Positions 591 to 60,110 of a stretch of DNA of 64,000 bases are shown here, piece by piece; within the stretch, counting starts at the first letter, position 1; each line of letters begins with the position of its first letter. The stretch comes from Kineococcus mangrovi (GTDB taxonomy: Bacteria; Actinomycetota; Actinomycetes; Actinomycetales; Kineococcaceae). The stretch covers positions 62,001 to 126,000 of the forward strand of contig NZ_JBGGTQ010000003.1 of the NCBI RefSeq assembly GCF_041320705.1. Reading direction: 5' to 3'. A program made the translations under genes and the position numbers. The notes under the pieces are model-generated. The model was not told the DNA's origin. It searched no databases and was given only the letters and a program-made list of their open reading frames with translations.

Positions 591-2870
591 TCAGGTCAGC
601 GAGTCCATGCCCGTCGGCAGCGGTTCGGCGTGCAGGACGTGCAGCTCCTGCGTCGCGCGGGTCAGCGCGACGTACAGGTCGTTCGCCCCGCGCGGGCGGC
701 GCAGCACCGCCGCGGGTTCGACGAGCACGACGACGTCGAACTCCAGGCCCTTGGCGCGGTGCACGTCGAGGACGGACACGGTGGCGTCCAGGTCGTCGGG
801 GGAGGCCGCGACCGACCCCGCGGGCAGGGCCGCGGTCACCGCGGCCCGCACCGCGTCCGACCCGACGGGGCCGTCCTCGTGCGCCGTCAGCACCGCGATG
901 CGGCCCTCCTCGAGGACGTCGAACCGCGACCGCACGAGGTCCACGACGGACTGCGCGCCCGCCAGCGGGACGGCGACCGGTTCGTGCTCGCCCTCGCGGA
1001 CGGGGGTCGGCGGGTTCGCGGCGATGCCCGCGGCGCGCAGCACGTCCGCGGCGACGCGGGAGATCTTGGCCGGGGTGCGGTAGTTGACGGTGAGCTCCTC
1101 CAGCCGCCACCGGTCGTCGACGACGGGTCGGAGCGCCTGCGCCCAGCTGCGCGCCCCGGCGGGGTTCGAGGTCTGCGCGACGTCCCCGACGAGCGTCATG
1201 GAGCGCGAGGGGCAGCGCCGCTCCACGAGGCGCCAGGCCATGGCCGACAGTTCCTGGGCCTCGTCGACGACGACGTGCCCGTAGGCCCAGGTGCGGTCCG
1301 CCGCAGCGCGTTCGGCGACCGTCCCGCTGGGGCCGCCGGTGGCGAACCGGTCGGCGAGCAGTTCGGGGGAGACGAGCGGGTTCCCCACCCCGGAGGCCTC
1401 GAAGTCCTCCAGGACCTTGCGCGCGTGGGCGACCTGCTCCTCGCGCTCGGCGGCCGCGCGCGCGTCCGACGACGTCTCCTCGAGCGGCCCCAGGAGTTCG
1501 GCCAGCTCGTCGAGCAGCGGGACGTCGGCCTCGCTCCACGCGGTCGGGTCCTCGCGGTGCAGGGCGTCGCGGTCGCGCTCGGACAGGCCGGGGGCGACCT
1601 CGGCCAGCAGCGCCGGGTTCCGGTAGAGGGCGGCGAGGACCTTCTGCGGGGTGAGCGGCATCCAGCACAGGTTCACCTCGCGGCGCACGTCGACGTTCTC
1701 CCGCAGCTCGGCGACGAGGTCGTCGCGCTCCTCGCCCAGGTCGACGCCGCGGGCGCGGGCCAGGGAGTTCACCAGGGAGTTCAGCACCTCGCGCACGAAG
1801 GTCACGCGCGCCAGGTTGTGGGGTTTGCGGCTGCGCCGGGCCCGCGTGCGCGCCGACGCGATCGCCTCGGGCCGCAGCTGGACGCGGGTGCCGTCCAGGT
1901 CGAAGCGGATCGGCCGGGCCGGCACGCGCTGGCGGGCCGCCACCGCCGCCTCGAGGACGTCGACCATCCGCAGCGACCCCTTGACGCGGGCGGCCGCGGG
2001 GGAGTCCTCGCCCCGGCCCACGACCCCGGGGTGCATCTCGCCGAGCGTGAGGGTGACCACGCCCGTCTCCCCGAGGGCGGGCAGCACCTGCTCGACGTAG
2101 CGCAGGAACACCGGGCTGGGGCCCAGGAGCAGGACGCCGCTGCGGGCCAGCCGGTCGCGGTGGGTGTAGAGCAGGTAGGCGGTGCGGTGCAGGGCCACGG
2201 CCGTCTTGCCCGTGCCCGGCCCGCCCTGGACGACGAGGACGCCGCGCTCGGAGGCGCGGATGACGCGGTCCTGCTCGGCCTGGATGGTCGCGACGATGTC
2301 GCCCATGCGGCCGGTGCGCGGGGCGGTGACGGCGGCCAGCAGCGCCGCGTCGCCCGTCGTGCGTCCCCCGTCGGCGGCCACGAGCACCTCGTCGTCCACG
2401 CCCGTGACGCGCCGCCCGGAGGTGAGCAGGTGCCGGCGCCGCACGACGTCGCGCGGGGAGGCCGCGGTGGCCTGGTAGAAGTCCTGCGCCGCGGGCGCCC
2501 GCCAGTCGACGAGGACCTGCGTGCCGCGTTCGTCGGCCAGGCCGAGCCGGCCGACGTAGCGGCGGGGGTCCTGGGTGCCCTCGCGCAGGTCCAGGCGGCC
2601 GAAGCAGAGCCGGTTCTCCACCGACCACAGCTGGGAGAGCCGGTCCTCGTAGAGGGTCGCGAACGCGTCCCGCTCGAAGCGGTTCTGGTGCGTGCCGGTC
2701 GCCTCGGTGCGGCGCACCTCGGCGAGCTGCTCGGCGGTCTGCGCTCGCAGCTGGTCCAGGCGGGCGTAGAGGGCGCCGACGTGGGCGTCCTCCGCGGCGA
2801 CGACCCGGGCGACCTCCTGCGCGTGCTCCTGCGCCGCGACGTCCGCGTCCGACTGCGTCGACTGGCTCAC
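591..2870 (-). CDS. helD: HelD-type superfamily 1 helicase (RNA polymerase-associated)
   Basis: This 759-residue protein is a UvrD/Rep-like superfamily 1 ATPase of the HelD group, which binds RNA polymerase and helps release it from stalled or nucleic-acid-bound states. The first about 90 residues are Ala/Glu/Arg-rich and likely form the N-terminal coiled coil that enters the polymerase secondary channel. Walker A is GGPGTGKT near residues 216-223, followed by HRTAYLLY. Walker B is VVVDEAQEL, and late motifs include VNYRTP, RAKGLEFDVVVL and YVALTRA. GTG at 2870 is chosen because GAGGAG lies 10 nt upstream and the coiled coil starts at once. The antisense reading extends further but that part has no helicase features. 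Actinobacterial HelD/HelR proteins can displace rifamycin from polymerase; an arr gene is also present in this window at 59 kb. Confidence 0.9.
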   Translation of the reverse strand: MSQSTQSDADVAAQEHAQEVARVVAAEDAHVGALYARLDQLRAQTAEQLAEVRRTEATGTHQNRFERDAFATLYEDRLSQLWSVENRLCFGRLDLREGTQDPRRYVGRLGLADERGTQVLVDWRAPAAQDFYQATAASPRDVVRRRHLLTSGRRVTGVDDEVLVAADGGRTTGDAALLAAVTAPRTGRMGDIVATIQAEQDRVIRASERGVLVVQGGPGTGKTAVALHRTAYLLYTHRDRLARSGVLLLGPSPVFLRYVEQVLPALGETGVVTLTLGEMHPGVVGRGEDSPAAARVKGSLRMVDVLEAAVAARQRVPARPIRFDLDGTRVQLRPEAIASARTRARRSRKPHNLARVTFVREVLNSLVNSLARARGVDLGEERDDLVAELRENVDVRREVNLCWMPLTPQKVLAALYRNPALLAEVAPGLSERDRDALHREDPTAWSEADVPLLDELAELLGPLEETSSDARAAAEREEQVAHARKVLEDFEASGVGNPLVSPELLADRFATGGPSGTVAERAAADRTWAYGHVVVDEAQELSAMAWRLVERRCPSRSMTLVGDVAQTSNPAGARSWAQALRPVVDDRWRLEELTVNYRTPAKISRVAADVLRAAGIAANPPTPVREGEHEPVAVPLAGAQSVVDLVRSRFDVLEEGRIAVLTAHEDGPVGSDAVRAAVTAALPAGSVAASPDDLDATVSVLDVHRAKGLEFDVVVLVEPAAVLRRPRGANDLYVALTRATQELHVLHAEPLPTGMDSLT

Positions 2871-3107
2871 TCGGGCGGCTCTCCTCGGGCGGGACGGCTC
2901 GGTCGTGCCGCGAACGGCACCGAAGAAGAGTAGACGGGGACGCCGGGGCACGAACGCGCGGACCGGTACGTTCCACCCCCGGAGAGCAACGCTGCGCGAG
3001 GTCGCAGTGCACGACCGCACCGCTGTGTCCTCCCACGGGTCCACCTCCCGGGCACCGCGCAGGACGGCCCCGCCGGGTCGTCCGCCACCCGCCCCGTGAG
3101 GAGTCCC

Positions 3108-4175
3108 GTGACGACCCTGCCCACCGCTGCCCGTCCACCGCGCCGCACGACGCCCTACGCGACGTTGACCGCCGCCGTCCAGGAGGCCGGGCTCATGCGC
3201 CGGCGCACCGGGTACTACTGGGCGCGCATCGCGGCCACGAGCGCCGCCTTCGCGGCCGTGGTGGCCGGGACGTACCTGTTGCGCGACTCCTGGCTGGTGC
3301 TGCTGACGGCGGCGCCGCTGGCGGTCGTCCTGACGCAGTTCGCCTTCCTCGGCCACGACGGCGCCCACCGGCAGATCTTCGCGACGCACCGCGGCAACGA
3401 GTGGGCCGCCCGCGTCTTCGCGGCCCTGCTGACGGGCCTGTCGTACGGGTGGTGGATGGGCAAGCACACCCGCCACCACCAGGCCCCGAACAAGCGCGGC
3501 ACCGACACCGACATCGAGTCCGACGTCGTGTCCTTCCACCCCGAGGCCGCGGCCGGCAGGCGCGGGCCGCTGCGGTGGGCCACGGCCAAGCAGGGCTGGT
3601 GGTTCTGGCCGCTGCTGCTGCTCGCGGGCCTGAACCTGCACGCCGACTCGGTGCGGACGATGGTGCGCGGCCGCGCCGGCAGGCGCCGCTGGATCGACAC
3701 GTCCTTCATCGTCGTGCACTGGGCCGTCTACGGCACCGCCCTCGTGCTGCTGCTCGGGCCCGGCCGGGGGGCCGCGTTCCTCGGCGTCCACGTGGCCGCC
3801 TTCGGCCTGGCCATGGGCGGGGCCTTCGCGCCCAACCACGTCGGCATGCCGATCGTGGCGCGGGAGGCGAAGGTCGACTACATCCGCCGCCAGGTGCTGA
3901 CGTCGCGCAACGTCACCGGCGGCTGGTTCGTCGACCTCGTCATGGGCGGGCTCAACCACCAGGTCGAGCACCACCTCTTCCCGAGCATGCCGCGGCCCAA
4001 CCTGCGCGCGGCGCGGCCCTTCGTGCAGCGCTTCTGCGCCGAGCACGGCATCGCGTACACGGAGACGTCGCTGCCCCGCGCGTTCGCCGACATCGTGCGC
4101 TACCTCAACGAGGTCGGACTGGCAGCGCGCGACCCGTTCCGCTGTCCGCTCGTGGCGCAACTGCGGACCGGCTGA
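3108..4175 (+). CDS. Membrane fatty-acid desaturase
   Basis: This 355-residue integral membrane protein is a di-iron acyl desaturase. It has the three histidine boxes of the family: HDGAH near residue 83, HTRHH near 120, and HQVEHH in the C-terminal third. Hydrophobic segments lie before and between the boxes. The last box has Q in front of VEHH, as in the linoleoyl/DesA3-like and front-end desaturases. It would introduce a double bond into membrane acyl chains using oxygen and an external electron donor; no ferredoxin or reductase gene is adjacent. GTG at 3108 is preferred over GTG at 3096 because TGAGGAG (3097-3103) covers the earlier codon and can serve as ribosome binding site for the later one. 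The divergent helD start is 237 bp away. Confidence 0.88.
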   Translation: MTTLPTAARPPRRTTPYATLTAAVQEAGLMRRRTGYYWARIAATSAAFAAVVAGTYLLRDSWLVLLTAAPLAVVLTQFAFLGHDGAHRQIFATHRGNEWAARVFAALLTGLSYGWWMGKHTRHHQAPNKRGTDTDIESDVVSFHPEAAAGRRGPLRWATAKQGWWFWPLLLLAGLNLHADSVRTMVRGRAGRRRWIDTSFIVVHWAVYGTALVLLLGPGRGAAFLGVHVAAFGLAMGGAFAPNHVGMPIVAREAKVDYIRRQVLTSRNVTGGWFVDLVMGGLNHQVEHHLFPSMPRPNLRAARPFVQRFCAEHGIAYTETSLPRAFADIVRYLNEVGLAARDPFRCPLVAQLRTG

Positions 4176-4343
4176 GACGTTCCTCGCGCGGGGGCGACCG
4201 TGCTACGTTGGGGGCTAGTCGCAGTTCTTCGACGTGCTCGTAGCGCCCCGGGGAATCACCGAGGGCCCAGTACGCTCACCATCCGGTCAGCACCCTCGGC
4301 GGCGAGCTCCACACGTGTGGGGCGCAAGACCCGAGGAGGCCTC

Positions 4344-4547
4344 ATGGCTCAGGGAACTGTCAAGTGGTTCAACGGCGAGAAGGGCTTCGGCTTCATCGCC
4401 CCCACCGACGGCGGTCCGGACGTCTTCGTCCACTACTCCGCGATCTCCGGTAGCGGCTACCGCAACCTCGAGGAGAACGACACCGTCGAGTTCGAGGTGA
4501 CCCAGGGCGCCAAGGGCCCCCAGGCCGCCAACGTCGTCCGTCTCTGA
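4344..4547 (+). CDS. cspA: Cold-shock protein, CspA family
   Basis: This 67-residue single cold-shock domain has both nucleic-acid-binding motifs, KGFGFI (RNP1) and VFVHY (RNP2), and the usual GTVKWFN start. It acts as an RNA chaperone. GAGGAGG (4333-4339) lies 4 nt before the ATG. The 168-bp gap after the desaturase gene leaves room for a long 5' leader, typical of cold-shock genes whose mRNA folding is temperature-sensitive. It ends just before a strong hairpin. Confidence 0.95.
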
Positions 4548-56859: not shown

Positions 56860-57082
56860 GCAGGGCGTTGCGGCGCAGGCCGTCGCGCTCGGTGTGGCGA
56901 CGTCACTCCTCCCGTGGTCACGCAGATCGGCGTTCAGTGCGCCTTCGTGACTCACCGTCACCTGATGATCGACGGGACGTCACCAGCTCGGCACCTGCTC
57001 GTCACCGGGCCGTGACATCGCCGTCGTGGACGGGTTATGGTCCACCCGCATCCCCGACCACGTGCGTGGATGCCCTCCCGCG

Positions 57083-57266
57083 GACGCCGAGCCCTGCCAC
57101 CGCGACGAGGTCCCCCGAGACATCACATGGCAGGGGTGGGGGAACCAAGTTCTCCGGGCCAGGCCCGACCAGCAGGTCGGCCGAGCCCTAGGGGTGAAGC
57201 CGGTGCGAACCGGCCGGGCTACTCCCTGCCCGAACCCGACAGCTCACCTCGCAGGCGTCGGAGAGG
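57083..57266 (+). ncRNA. ydaO/yuaA-type cyclic di-AMP riboswitch
   Basis: The 184-bp region carries the conserved ydaO core: CAGGGGTGGGGGAACCAA, GGGGTGAAGCCGG, CCCTGCCCGAACCCGACAGC, and the 3' end CACCTCGCAGGCGTCGGAGAGG. The outer P1 helix pairs GACGCC (57083-57088) with GGCGTC (57254-57259). Such riboswitches sense cyclic di-AMP and often control cell-wall hydrolases in actinobacteria, matching the NlpC/P60 gene directly downstream. The 3' end includes the GGAGAGG that serves as ribosome binding site. The upstream 56860-57082 stretch holds only the promoter region and no gene. Confidence 0.9.
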
Positions 57267-57274
57267 CCCACACC

Positions 57275-58126
57275 TTGACGACTCGCGTCCAGGCGCGCCA
57301 CCGCGCTGCCGTCCGCCCCCTCACGCCCCTGACCGACCTGTCGGGCAGCCTCGCCCGCACCGCCGGCGGGGCCGCCCGCACCGGCGCCGTCGCCGCCGCT
57401 GCCGGTGGCCTGCTCGCCGCGGTCGCCCTCCCCGCCAGCGCGGCCCCGGCCGCCGCTCCCGCCGCGGTCGGCGCGAGCACCGCCTCCGCCGTCCCGGCCG
57501 CCTTCGGCGCCACGGCGCCCGGGGTCGTCTCCGCCCCGGCCACCGCCACCACGCTGGCCACCACCGCCACCTTCGCGGCGGCTCCGGCCCCGGCCCCGGT
57601 GGTCGTGGCCCCGGTCCTCGAGCGCGGCACCCGCACCGCCGGCCCCGCCCCGGCCATCGCCTCCAGCGTCGCCGAGAGCGCTGTCGCCCTGGCCCGCCCC
57701 GCCGCCGTCGAGGTCGCCGCCCCCGCTCCGGCCCCCGCGCCGGAGCCGGCTCCCGCCCCGGTCCCGCTGGGTCAGCAGATCCTGTCCATCGCCGACGACT
57801 ACGCCGGTGCGCCCTACGTCTACGGCGGCACCACGCCGTCCGGCTTCGACTGCTCGGGCTACACCAGCTACGTGTACCGCCAGGTCGGCGTGGACATCCC
57901 GCGCACCGCCAACGCCCAGAAGCAGGCCGCCGCGGGCATCTCCCGCGGCGACGCCGTCCCCGGCGACCTGGTGTTCTTCTCGAACTCCGGCGGCCGGGCG
58001 TACCACGTCGGCATCTACGCCGGCGACAACATGATGTGGGACGCCCCCCGGGCCGGGAAGCCCGTCCAGCTCCGCGCCATCTGGAGCAGCGCCGTGACCT
58101 TCGGCCGGCTGGCCCCCACCGTCTGA
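57275..58126 (+). CDS. Secreted NlpC/P60 peptidoglycan endopeptidase
   Basis: This 283-residue protein starts at TTG 57275, supported by GGAGAGG 8 nt upstream. It has a signal-peptide-like segment (AAAAGGLLAAVALPASAAP), a long Ala/Pro-rich linker, and a C-terminal NlpC/P60 domain: SIADDYAGAPYVYGGTTPSGFDCSGY with the catalytic Cys, RTANAQKQAAAGISRGDAVPGDLVFF, and YHVGIYAGDNMMWDAPR with the His. It would cut peptide cross-links in the cell wall. Expression is set by the cyclic di-AMP riboswitch before it. Confidence 0.92.
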   Translation: MTTRVQARHRAAVRPLTPLTDLSGSLARTAGGAARTGAVAAAAGGLLAAVALPASAAPAAAPAAVGASTASAVPAAFGATAPGVVSAPATATTLATTATFAAAPAPAPVVVAPVLERGTRTAGPAPAIASSVAESAVALARPAAVEVAAPAPAPAPEPAPAPVPLGQQILSIADDYAGAPYVYGGTTPSGFDCSGYTSYVYRQVGVDIPRTANAQKQAAAGISRGDAVPGDLVFFSNSGGRAYHVGIYAGDNMMWDAPRAGKPVQLRAIWSSAVTFGRLAPTV

Positions 58127-58140
58127 GCCGGGCCCCGTCC

Positions 58141-58175
58141 AGGAGGCGTGCACCGCGACGCGGTGCACGCCTCCT
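58141..58175 (+). terminator. Strong terminator after the NlpC/P60 gene
   Basis: A 16-bp perfect stem (58141-58156 with 58160-58175) around GAC, 15 bp after the stop. Confidence 0.9.
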
Positions 58176-58229
58176 GCGCGTCCGGGCCGGTGCCGGCGAG
58201 GACCCGCACGGGCGTTCACGGGAAAGTTG

Positions 58230-58258
58230 CTGACTCTTCCACCACCGCGACGTACGCT
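58230..58258 (+). promoter_or_regulatory. Probable promoter of the His-leader and HNH gene
   Basis: CTGACT (58230-58235), 17 nt, TACGCT (58253-58258). It would give a leader of about 228 nt before the HNH start, enough for the His-rich ORF and hairpin. Confidence 0.4.
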
Positions 58259-58304
58259 GCCGTCAACGACGACGGGTAGCAGCACCGACTCACGGGGAGG
58301 GCCG

Positions 58305-58511
58305 ATGACGACACCTCGCACGCACGCCGTCCCCGGCCGCACCGCGGGAGCCGGGACCGCGGTACCGCACGGGCCCACCGGGCAGCACGTCGTGGGGCAC
58401 CACCACGTGCACCACCACCATGCGGCCGTCGTCGCTCTCAGAGGCGCCTCCCCCGTCGGGGACGGCGCCTCTCGTCGTCTCAGGAGGTGGATGTGCGCAC
58501 GCTCGTGCTGA
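58305..58511 (+). CDS. His-rich leader peptide upstream of the HNH gene
   Basis: This 68-residue ORF starts at ATG 58305 behind GGGGAGG (58294-58300). It contains seven His codons in eight (58398-58421: three His, Val, four His), plus further His nearby. Its codons run into and through a hairpin (58440-58472) and end inside the HNH coding start (58511). Dense runs of one codon before a hairpin are the hallmark of translation-controlled attenuators; histidine would be the sensed amino acid. It may instead encode a metal-binding peptide. Translation is not demonstrated. Confidence 0.45.
   Translation: MTTPRTHAVPGRTAGAGTAVPHGPTGQHVVGHHHVHHHHAAVVALRGASPVGDGASRRLRRWMCARSC
58440..58472 (+). promoter_or_regulatory. 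Attenuator-like hairpin before the HNH gene
   Basis: AGAGGCGCC pairs with GGCGCCTCT, and inner TCCCC pairs with GGGGA, with a CGTC loop and one bulged C: 14 bp in all. The hairpin starts 18 nt after the last His codon and ends 9 nt before the HNH ribosome binding site. GCCGTC (58425-58430) can pair with GACGGC (58461-58466) instead, giving an alternative fold. Confidence 0.55.
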
Positions 58512-58987
58512 ACGCCGGCTACGAACCGCTCGCGGTCGTGTCCTTCCGGCGGGCCCTGGTCCTGGTGCTGGCGGGGAAGGCGTCGGTCGTCCTCGCCGAC
58601 GCCGATCCCGTCGTCGGTGCGACGGTGAGCCTGGAACGCCCGTCCGTCATCCTCCTGACCCGGTACGTCCGGGTGCCGCGCGGGCAGGTCGTGCCGGTGA
58701 GCCGGCGCGGGGTCCTGCGCCGGGACCACCAGCGCTGCGCCTACTGCCGCGGGCACGCCGCGACCGTCGACCACGTGCTGCCGCGCAGCCGCCGGGGCCC
58801 GGACAGCTGGGAGAACCTCGTGGCGTGCTGCGTGCGCTGCAACAACGCCAAGGGTGACCGGACACCGGAGGAGATGGGCTGGCACCTGCCCTTCCGGCCC
58901 GGGCCCCCGCGCGGGGCGTCCTGGGCGGTGCGCGGCGCCGACCAGGCCGACCCGCGGTGGGACTCCTTCCTGGCCACGGCGGCCTGA
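58493..58987 (+). CDS. HNH endonuclease
   Basis: This 164-residue protein has an HNH nuclease module in the second half: RCAYCRGHAATVDHVLPRS, then WENLVACCVRCNNAKGDRT, with two CxxC pairs for a zinc and the catalytic His. The N-terminal half VRTLVLNAGYEPLAVVSFRRALVLVLAGKASVV is typical of a conserved actinobacterial HNH group. The target is unknown. AGGAGG (58482-58487) is 5 nt before GTG 58493. It lies downstream of a possible His-codon attenuator. Confidence 0.87.
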   Translation: MRTLVLNAGYEPLAVVSFRRALVLVLAGKASVVLADADPVVGATVSLERPSVILLTRYVRVPRGQVVPVSRRGVLRRDHQRCAYCRGHAATVDHVLPRSRRGPDSWENLVACCVRCNNAKGDRTPEEMGWHLPFRPGPPRGASWAVRGADQADPRWDSFLATAA

Positions 58988-59006
58988 CGAGCGGGCGCCG
59001 GGGTCG

Positions 59007-59420
59007 TCAGTTGACGATCCCGGCGTCCGTCTCCCGCAGCACGATCAGCCGTTCCGTCCACTGCTGCACCGCCTCCGGCGTCAGCCGGGTCCCGCCGTGC
59101 ACCTCGCGCACGACTCGCAGCGGGTCCGTGCTGCGGAACGAACGCGTGGGGTTGCCCGGGAACTTCCTGTCCGTGACGTTCGGGTCGTCCTCGAAGGGGC
59201 CGGTGGGCTCGACCTCGTAGACGTGCGGGTCGCCGCCCCCGAGCAGCACGGCCATCTCGGCCGCCAGGCCGGCCCCGTCGCGCAGCGCCGTGAAGCAGAC
59301 GTGGTTCATGACGACCTCGGGACGGTAGTTCGACCGGCGCCCGGCCACGAGCAGGTCGCCGGGGGACACCGCGGCCCTCGTGCCGTGGAAGAAGGGGCCG
59401 GGTTCGTCCGGGAGGACCAC
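59007..59420 (-). CDS. arr: Rifamycin ADP-ribosyltransferase (Arr)
   Basis: This 137-residue protein matches the compact Arr family, which uses NAD to ADP-ribosylate rifampin: PFFHGTRAAVSPGDLLVAG with a substrate-facing His, SNYRPEVVMNHVCFTA, VYEVEPTGPFEDDPNVTDRK and FPGNPTRSFRSTDPLRVVREV. Its usual length is about 140 residues. GTG 59420 has no clear ribosome binding site. It stands alone on the minus strand, converging with the HNH gene. Intrinsic chromosomal arr genes are known in several actinobacteria. Confidence 0.9.
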   Translation of the reverse strand: MVLPDEPGPFFHGTRAAVSPGDLLVAGRRSNYRPEVVMNHVCFTALRDGAGLAAEMAVLLGGGDPHVYEVEPTGPFEDDPNVTDRKFPGNPTRSFRSTDPLRVVREVHGGTRLTPEAVQQWTERLIVLRETDAGIVN

Positions 59421-59521
59421 CGGGTCAGCTCACGGCGCACCGGCCGGGCCGACGGTGCGGTCGTGCGTCGGCGCACCGCGGGACGGGCGGGTGGGTGGAC
59501 CCCCGGCGCGTGGTGCTGCCG

Positions 59522-60110
59522 ATGACGGATGATCCTCAGGCGGTCGATGCCCCGTGGCTGGTGCGCGCACGGGTCCGTCACGAGCCCGACCGCTCCTGCG
59601 CGGTGCTCGTCGGGGGGCCCGACGGAGAGGTGCAGGTGGGCAACACCCGCCAGACCGGTCGCATCGGGCAGGTGGCCCGTGAGGGTGCGGACCGCCTGTG
59701 GGGCCGTCCGGCGGGGAGCACCACGTGGGCGAACCTGGAGCTGTCGATGCCTCGTCCGCCGTGCGGGCGCGATGGGCAGTGGGTGCGCGTCGTGGCTGTC
59801 GGCGAGGACGCTCTGCCCGATGACCTGCTCGAGGTGGGGCAGGTGGGTCTGGCGTACTGGTTCGGTGCGGAGTGGGCGTGGATGGTCAGCGGCCCCGGCC
59901 TGGGGGGATCTCCCCGGGTGAGCACCTGGACTTCGAGACGTCGTGTCAGCCGGGCCGGGCGGGAGAGGCGCGGCGCGGCGCGGGAGCTCGCCGGTCCGGG
60001 GTTCCGTCCAGGACGTGGTCAGGCACCTCGTGGTCGAGGTCGACCCGCGTGGTGTGCCAGTCCTCGTCGCCGTGTTCGTCGCCCCGAGGGACGTACCCGC
60101 GTGTCACTGA
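59522..60110 (+). pseudogene. Possible frameshifted gene of unknown function
   Basis: ATG 59522 opens a frame with coding-like composition (DAPWLVRARVRHEPDRSCAV, VGNTRQTGRIGQVAREGADRL, LLEVGQVGLAYWFGAEWAWMV) to about 59900. Good coding then moves to a second frame (GISPGEHLDFETS) and to a third (VQDVVRHLVVEVDPRGVPVL, VLVAVFVAPRDV) with a stop at 60108-60110. If this is one gene it has at least two frameshifts. I recognise no family. It may instead be one short gene ending in a changed tail (a stop at 60229). Confidence 0.35.

Follow-up and report, generated by a model that had tools for sequence, protein, structure and literature searches.

The window, by which we mean the whole stretch of 64,000 nucleotides that was analysed, comes from the soil actinobacterium Kineococcus and carries on its forward strand, at 58493..58987, a gene for an HNH endonuclease of 164 residues. 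We set the start of this gene at the GTG at 58493 because the residues MRTLVLNA found there are common to 25 aligned relatives. The product scores above the cut-offs for the Pfam families HNH (PF01844), HNH_5 (PF14279) and HNH_4 (PF13395), confirming the original prediction that the gene behind the leader is a nuclease gene and not one for histidine synthesis; among named organisms, those closest by this protein are Kineococcus. Overlapping the first 19 nt of HNH is a leader open reading frame of 68 codons (58305..58511, forward strand), which runs from ATG to a TGA at 58509-58511 and is preceded by the Shine-Dalgarno sequence GGAGG at 58296..58300; a TTG-started version of the same frame, 58227-58511, stands in the window's list of open reading frames. 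Within the leader lies the tract CAC CAC CAC GTG CAC CAC CAC CAT (58398..58421), with seven histidine codons in eight, followed at 58440..58472 by a hairpin (14 pairs, one base bulged, a loop of 4 nt; -28.0 kcal/mol) whose U tail, CGUCGUCU, is weak, and then by the HNH Shine-Dalgarno sequence AGGAGG (58482..58487). The fold of 58380-58500 has z = -3.36, and none of 200 shuffles is as low. The leader with its Shine-Dalgarno, the histidine codons, the hairpin with the ribosome binding site behind it and the overlap with the HNH start had all been predicted, and all were found in place. In addition, a -10-like box, TACGCT at 58253..58258 (GACGTANNNT in relatives), stands 37-55 nt before the leader start in all 12 Kineococcaceae compared and is a possible promoter of the leader transcript; a sigma-70 consensus scan found no promoter.

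The neighbouring genes have features of their own. A c-di-AMP riboswitch (RF00379, 56.2 bits) occupies 57103-57272 on the forward strand, at the start of the NlpC/P60 gene region that precedes HNH, and the same riboswitch is present in the HNH loci L009, L057, L112, L143 and L145. Directly after the NlpC/P60 stop codon a strong inverted repeat can be seen by eye (58140-58175), probably that gene's own terminator. On the other side, convergent with HNH, a reverse-strand open reading frame at 59007-59420 encodes a rifampin ADP-ribosyltransferase domain (Arr-ms, PF12120) that scores 136.6 bits.

Homologues of the nuclease were matched at E 1e-25 in 94 of 118 class-sample genomes and 123 of 297 order-sample genomes; at E 1e-30, a phylum sample gave matches in 41 of 60 genomes. 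Two of the matches (G425:C27 and G464:C5) each contain one in-frame stop codon. The nearest relatives of the HNH part of the product are the HNH domains of IscB and Cas9, which fall below the curated NCBIfam cut-offs and are also the nearest among solved structures, and a single PHROG HNH family covers residues 1-139. The AlphaFold model, with a mean pLDDT of 55.3 and residues 1-66 below 50, was set aside. We rejected a defence-system call for the gene, since the PADLOC matches are weak and confined to the HNH part (PtuB, PDC-M01B and Cas9; best E 1.6e-9).

We compared the leader of the window (L003) with ten leaders from the same genus (L004-L013) and one from another genus (L112), which together make up the 12 Kineococcaceae. 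In a table compiled for one frame only, every species has GGAGG and a start codon, ATG or GTG, from which the frame stays open for 58-71 codons, in eight different lengths, and every leader ends at the same TGA inside HNH. The start scan was later repeated in all frames: between -230 and -90 all 13 GGAGG-preceded ATG or GTG starts, spread over the 12 species, belong to the leader frame and meet no stop codon before the hairpin, while neither of the other frames has any such start, which supports translation of the leader. The overlap with HNH counts for little in this respect, because the TGA at +16 follows from the conserved HNH codons for VLNA. A second frame, too, is free of stops up to -20 in all 12 species. 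The hairpin too is present in every species, at -26 to -34 kcal/mol, followed by 2-4 T in 8 nt or 3-5 in 10 nt; a terminator scan found none in Kineococcus. The Kineococcus leader has no stop at the hairpin and reads through it into HNH. In five close Kineococcus pairs no peptide constraint was seen in the leader before the hairpin, where differences fall 29/27/20 by codon position and affect 12 codons synonymously and 45 nonsynonymously.

The histidine codons behave differently from the frame around them, and here the outcome of aligning relatives was divided: the hairpin and frame are kept in 12 of 12 species, whereas the number of His codons per leader varies (12, 12, 10, 9, 9, 8, 7, 7, 6, 5, 4 and 4) and runs are rare elsewhere. 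The two leaders with four, L005 and L007, have no run, and of the 103 loci listed from outside the Kineococcaceae, L057 alone has HHH, which is likewise missing from all 66 Microbacteriaceae leaders. At least seven His codons in eight are found at one place in the six frames of the window and nowhere in 25 first-order and 25 second-order Markov sequences of 64 kb. In the 4.36-Mb genome the pattern CAY3-N3-CAY3 occurs twice, in the leader tract and in a CAC repeat elsewhere, and a backward-read control, which also fits CAC repeats, matched equally often. Among the six Kineococcaceae that align without indels, identity is 0.86 in the tract block and 0.88 in the hairpin, and 0.48 in the stretch directly upstream; the final tract codon, CAT, accounts for none of the 77 His codons in eight window open reading frames taken as genes; and ACCACCAT is present in 10 of the 12 species. 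On these three grounds the tract looks to be held as nucleotides; the run of His codons looks specific to this lineage.

Two explanations of the tract have to be weighed at this point. The original prediction likened the region to the his-operon attenuator, in which scarce charged tRNA-His would stall a ribosome on the His run, an antiterminator would form and HNH would be expressed. The run is rare, lies 18 nt before a strong hairpin and is accompanied in the window by a perfect 6-bp alternative pairing (58425-58430 with 58461-58466), as had been proposed. That pairing, however, is complete in two species only, with 2 to 5 of the 6 pairs in the other ten Kineococcaceae. We also modelled stalling, with the A site at each His codon, 15 nt covered downstream, RNA upstream of the ribosome ignored and the RNA cut about 12 nt after the hairpin. 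In this folding model the hairpin, which forms with a probability of 0.88 to 0.98 in the 12 species when no ribosome is present, stays folded for a ribosome stalled at any His codon before it (P 0.96-1.0, 12 of 12 species), and the ribosome reaches it only once past about -68. A stalled ribosome would therefore leave the hairpin closed, a sign opposite to that of his attenuation. We therefore rejected histidine sensing through an antiterminator, and with a His count that falls to four, the lack of constraint on the peptide and a gene unrelated to histidine, we regard a his-like attenuator as very improbable and conclude that the His codons are probably not a histidine sensor. What survives of the likeness is a leader that appears translated and a hairpin that is kept, both of them attenuator-like. 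Alternatively, the CACCACC tract might act as an anti-Shine-Dalgarno strand for HNH, as in the LEU element, with leader translation freeing the Shine-Dalgarno sequence. As read from the sequence, 7 of 8 positions are complementary between CCACCACC and GGAGGUGG, folds of single species pair the Shine-Dalgarno with such tracts in several species, and conservation of the tract as nucleotides, with a CAT codon that the eight window open reading frames taken as genes do not use, would fit. Against this, the Shine-Dalgarno is no less accessible than in shuffled leaders in most species (between 1 and 39 of 40 shuffles are at least as closed; the sole clear case is L013, at 1 of 40, with L010 at 5 of 40), and the helix is absent from the alignment-wide fold of the 12 species. 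An apparent covariation in L012 and L013 (Shine-Dalgarno GGTGCC, leader GGCACC) was discarded, as L112 has GGCACC with the Shine-Dalgarno GGTGG. Overall, we find this second explanation of the tract improbable.

In other Actinomycetales, a hairpin similar in sequence, with a tail that is more or less U-rich, often stands before HNH. A motif scan matched 108 of 191 distinct HNH upstream regions and did not match the other 83, with a pattern that was written after the sequences had been viewed, that listed 5 of the 12 Kineococcaceae and missed 7, and for which at least one listed hairpin, that of L113, is doubtful. By position and resemblance, on which homology across families rests, the Kineococcus hairpin is probably related to the intrinsic-terminator hairpins of relatives. 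Many other HNH orthologues have no hairpin, and some have a different, structured-looking 5' region. By eye, ten loci (L117, L161, L167, L168, L170, L172, L173, L201, L203 and L205) show such a region upstream of HNH in place of the leader-terminator layout, several of them with an AGCC-type loop; nine of the ten (all but L203) were compared with Rfam, and none matched a family even at E 1. When the window from 57000 to 60000 and sets of 8 and 20 loci were searched against Rfam, no leader reached the gathering score of a family, the one match over the L041 leader being at chance level (RF02883, E 3, 19.6 bits against 40). The peptide looks constrained in one genus of Kineosporiaceae, a group label which, like Pseudokineococcus, we infer from upstream letters that named and unnamed loci have in common (L057/L154 and L101/L160). 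In six loci of this genus (L145, L146, L147, L149, L150 and L151), leader differences fall 29/29/83 by codon position, with 62 synonymous and 52 nonsynonymous codons, and the peptide around HIRDFLAARARAHTGLPG may possibly be an arrest peptide. Two further groups, at 64/56/83 and 45/42/69, show modest constraint.

In Microbacteriaceae the layout takes a clear form. These loci, 70 in all, were assigned by record name, HNH similarity or family label f5 (L036, L061, L087 and L106 are named otherwise); the set is restricted to loci with a scanned hairpin, which leaves aside, for example, several from Curtobacterium. Four have no leader by the peptide motif, and among the remaining 66 at least one pick (L073) is the wrong open reading frame. 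The leader stop codon is placed at the hairpin in 49 of the 66, 42 times inside it and 7 times within 6 nt before it; 16 leaders are called as ending downstream and one ends further upstream. When the other two frames were read from the same point as a control, 10 of the 132 first stops fell at the hairpin in the same sense (Fisher 5e-22, a value inflated by the relatedness of the sequences, whose counts are not independent events). The 49 hairpin-placed stops are distributed over all three frames (5, 21 and 23), make use of TAA, TAG and TGA, and lie at -3/-2 or at +10 to +14, counted from where the 5' arm begins. The same outcome in three frames would be hard to obtain by descent alone. Behind the hairpin there are on average 6.4 T in 10 nt (n=66), as against the 3-5 of Kineococcaceae. 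An alignment (A1) of 47 of the 66 leaders has three covarying helices, one inside the open reading frame, the terminator itself and an AAGCC-loop hairpin before the Shine-Dalgarno; pairing holds in 97.8% of cells, double changes occur at 12 of 22 pairs and none of 500 shuffles reaches this, a result that holds for that architecture only, the 16 downstream-ending leaders, two others and one near-identical row having been dropped. Comparison between loci shows the architecture, the leader frame, the placement of the stop and the covariation.

A recurring stretch of the Microbacteriaceae leader peptide, IRTMDALGRLVLRH, varies synonymously (Arg is CGC in 21 and CGA in 21 of 42 leaders), and the invariance of this Arg is by construction, because the codon table was aligned by an Arg-requiring motif that left out 8 of 50 leaders. 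Over 75 pairs the three codon positions differ 291, 380 and 505 times, and 306 codons change synonymously and 563 nonsynonymously; there is constraint, but it is modest and weaker than in the Kineosporiaceae genus. R1, our model of the AAGCC-loop hairpin, was run on 12 genomes and matched strongly once in every one of them, the next match being at E 0.118; these matches are mostly its own training sequences, and 150 of the 1,825-4,530 first-look candidates were scored per genome. One strong place per genome fits control of HNH alone. The AAGCC-loop hairpin was rejected as a part of the Kineococcus leader, since 36 loci from other families, the Kineococcaceae L003, L004 and L112 among them, yielded no R1 match with E below 0.1, and an ACCAU loop seemingly common to Kineococcus and Microbacteriaceae was dropped because local folds differ between species. 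The stop in or beside the terminator, as Microbacteriaceae have it, is not found in the Kineococcus leader.

Overall, we believe the stretch to be the leader of HNH's own transcript and an attenuator that depends on translation, HNH expression being permitted once a ribosome gets to the hairpin, a reading to which we assign a probability of about 0.5. Imagine the short leader being translated directly behind RNA polymerase. If no ribosome is at the hairpin, it would fold and stop transcription, or else bar access to the start of HNH; a ribosome that gets there would cover or melt the hairpin, and transcription would continue. The Kineococcus ribosome would melt the hairpin as it moves through, end inside the HNH start and be able to hand over to HNH. 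A ribosome at a leader stop of the Microbacteriaceae type would cover the terminator, and the simplest reading of these leaders is therefore that HNH is transcribed when the leader is translated to its end, and that transcription stops when it is not. Use of the promoter, leader translation, termination and readthrough are our inferences from this layout, as are the direction of the response and the coupling to HNH.

At the same time, several observations pull against this attenuator, and two further explanations draw on them. The U tail of the Kineococcaceae hairpins is poorer than that of Microbacteriaceae, the Kineococcus leader runs through the hairpin with no constraint on its peptide in the five close pairs, constraint is modest outside the one Kineosporiaceae genus, and there remain the 16 Microbacteriaceae leaders called as ending downstream and the 83 upstream regions that the scan did not match. 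The leader might instead simply feed ribosomes to the overlapping HNH start, with no termination involved, while the hairpin hides the start region or protects the RNA. Such translational coupling had also been raised in the original prediction; the weak U tail and a leader that ends inside HNH in 12 of 12 Kineococcaceae suit it, and PMC4833913 puts forward, for Actinobacteria, that ribosomes reinitiate after translating a leader gene close by. We nonetheless hold it to be unlikely, given that the hairpin resembles the U-tailed hairpins of relatives and that the position of the stop is dictated by the codons of HNH itself. Nor do we put much weight on chance, according to which an open frame would have arisen by drift over a CAC-rich stretch of a GC-rich genome and the hairpin would be a passive stabiliser or a relic. 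The unconstrained peptide of the close pairs and the second stop-free frame are what one would expect of it, yet it would have to accommodate 13 of 13 Shine-Dalgarno-preceded starts in one frame, a tract block conserved about as well as the hairpin and far above its flank, and a leader-plus-terminator architecture shared with relatives; we think this a very remote prospect.

Several known systems resemble the attenuator proposed here, each in part. Like the his and trp attenuators, it has a leader with a codon run and then a strong hairpin before the gene; unlike them, it lacks a conserved antiterminator, its hairpin survives a modelled stall, its run is lineage-specific and its gene encodes a nuclease. 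In the portions of PMC1262725 and PMC10272879 that we draw on, actinobacterial ilvB leaders contain open reading frames that overlap terminators (PMC1262725), the ilvB-II uORF (PMC10272879) is one such actinobacterial case, and the codon run matches the pathway, whereas HNH has no metabolic link and the feature kept in the Microbacteriaceae HNH leaders is the position of the stop codon. The LEU element before leuA, as given in that portion of PMC1262725, has a run of Leu codons that pairs with the Shine-Dalgarno; the codon run of our leader can likewise pair with the Shine-Dalgarno of the gene behind it, but the closure achieved is no better than in shuffled leaders. The toiL uORF of E. coli topAI, where according to the available part of PMC12121999 antibiotic stalling opens the ribosome binding site and Rho ends transcription, is similar to the proposed attenuator in sensing the state of translation and in controlling a non-metabolic gene; the present case differs by an intrinsic-type hairpin and by what would be the opposite sign. 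The accessible text of PMC9413887, which deals with His attenuators in Gram-positives, contains no mention of HNH or Kineococcus. We found no report joining HNH with a leader, attenuation or an RNA motif; outside this comparison stands a conference paper of 2015, cited in PMC4833913, which deals with leader peptides that contain His in Actinobacteria and may overlap with our subject. In the literature searched, we found no description of an attenuator of an HNH gene.

A more general scheme can be put forward tentatively, as one we consider possible and still doubtful. Across several Actinomycetales families, the HNH gene would be read only if a ribosome finishing the short leader sits on the terminator, with the stop codon held at the hairpin in any frame, so that translation would license the nuclease. 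In contrast to amino-acid attenuators, the signal would be the arrival of translation at the end and not a stalled ribosome, and failing translation would switch the nuclease off. The case is also a warning that, where a leader is GC-rich, a run of one codon need not sense the amino acid that it encodes. If the scheme is right, the frame-independent placement of a stop codon at a terminator would provide a comparative signature for which other leaders can be searched, and a nuclease that is widespread in Actinomycetota would be tied to the translation state of the cell.
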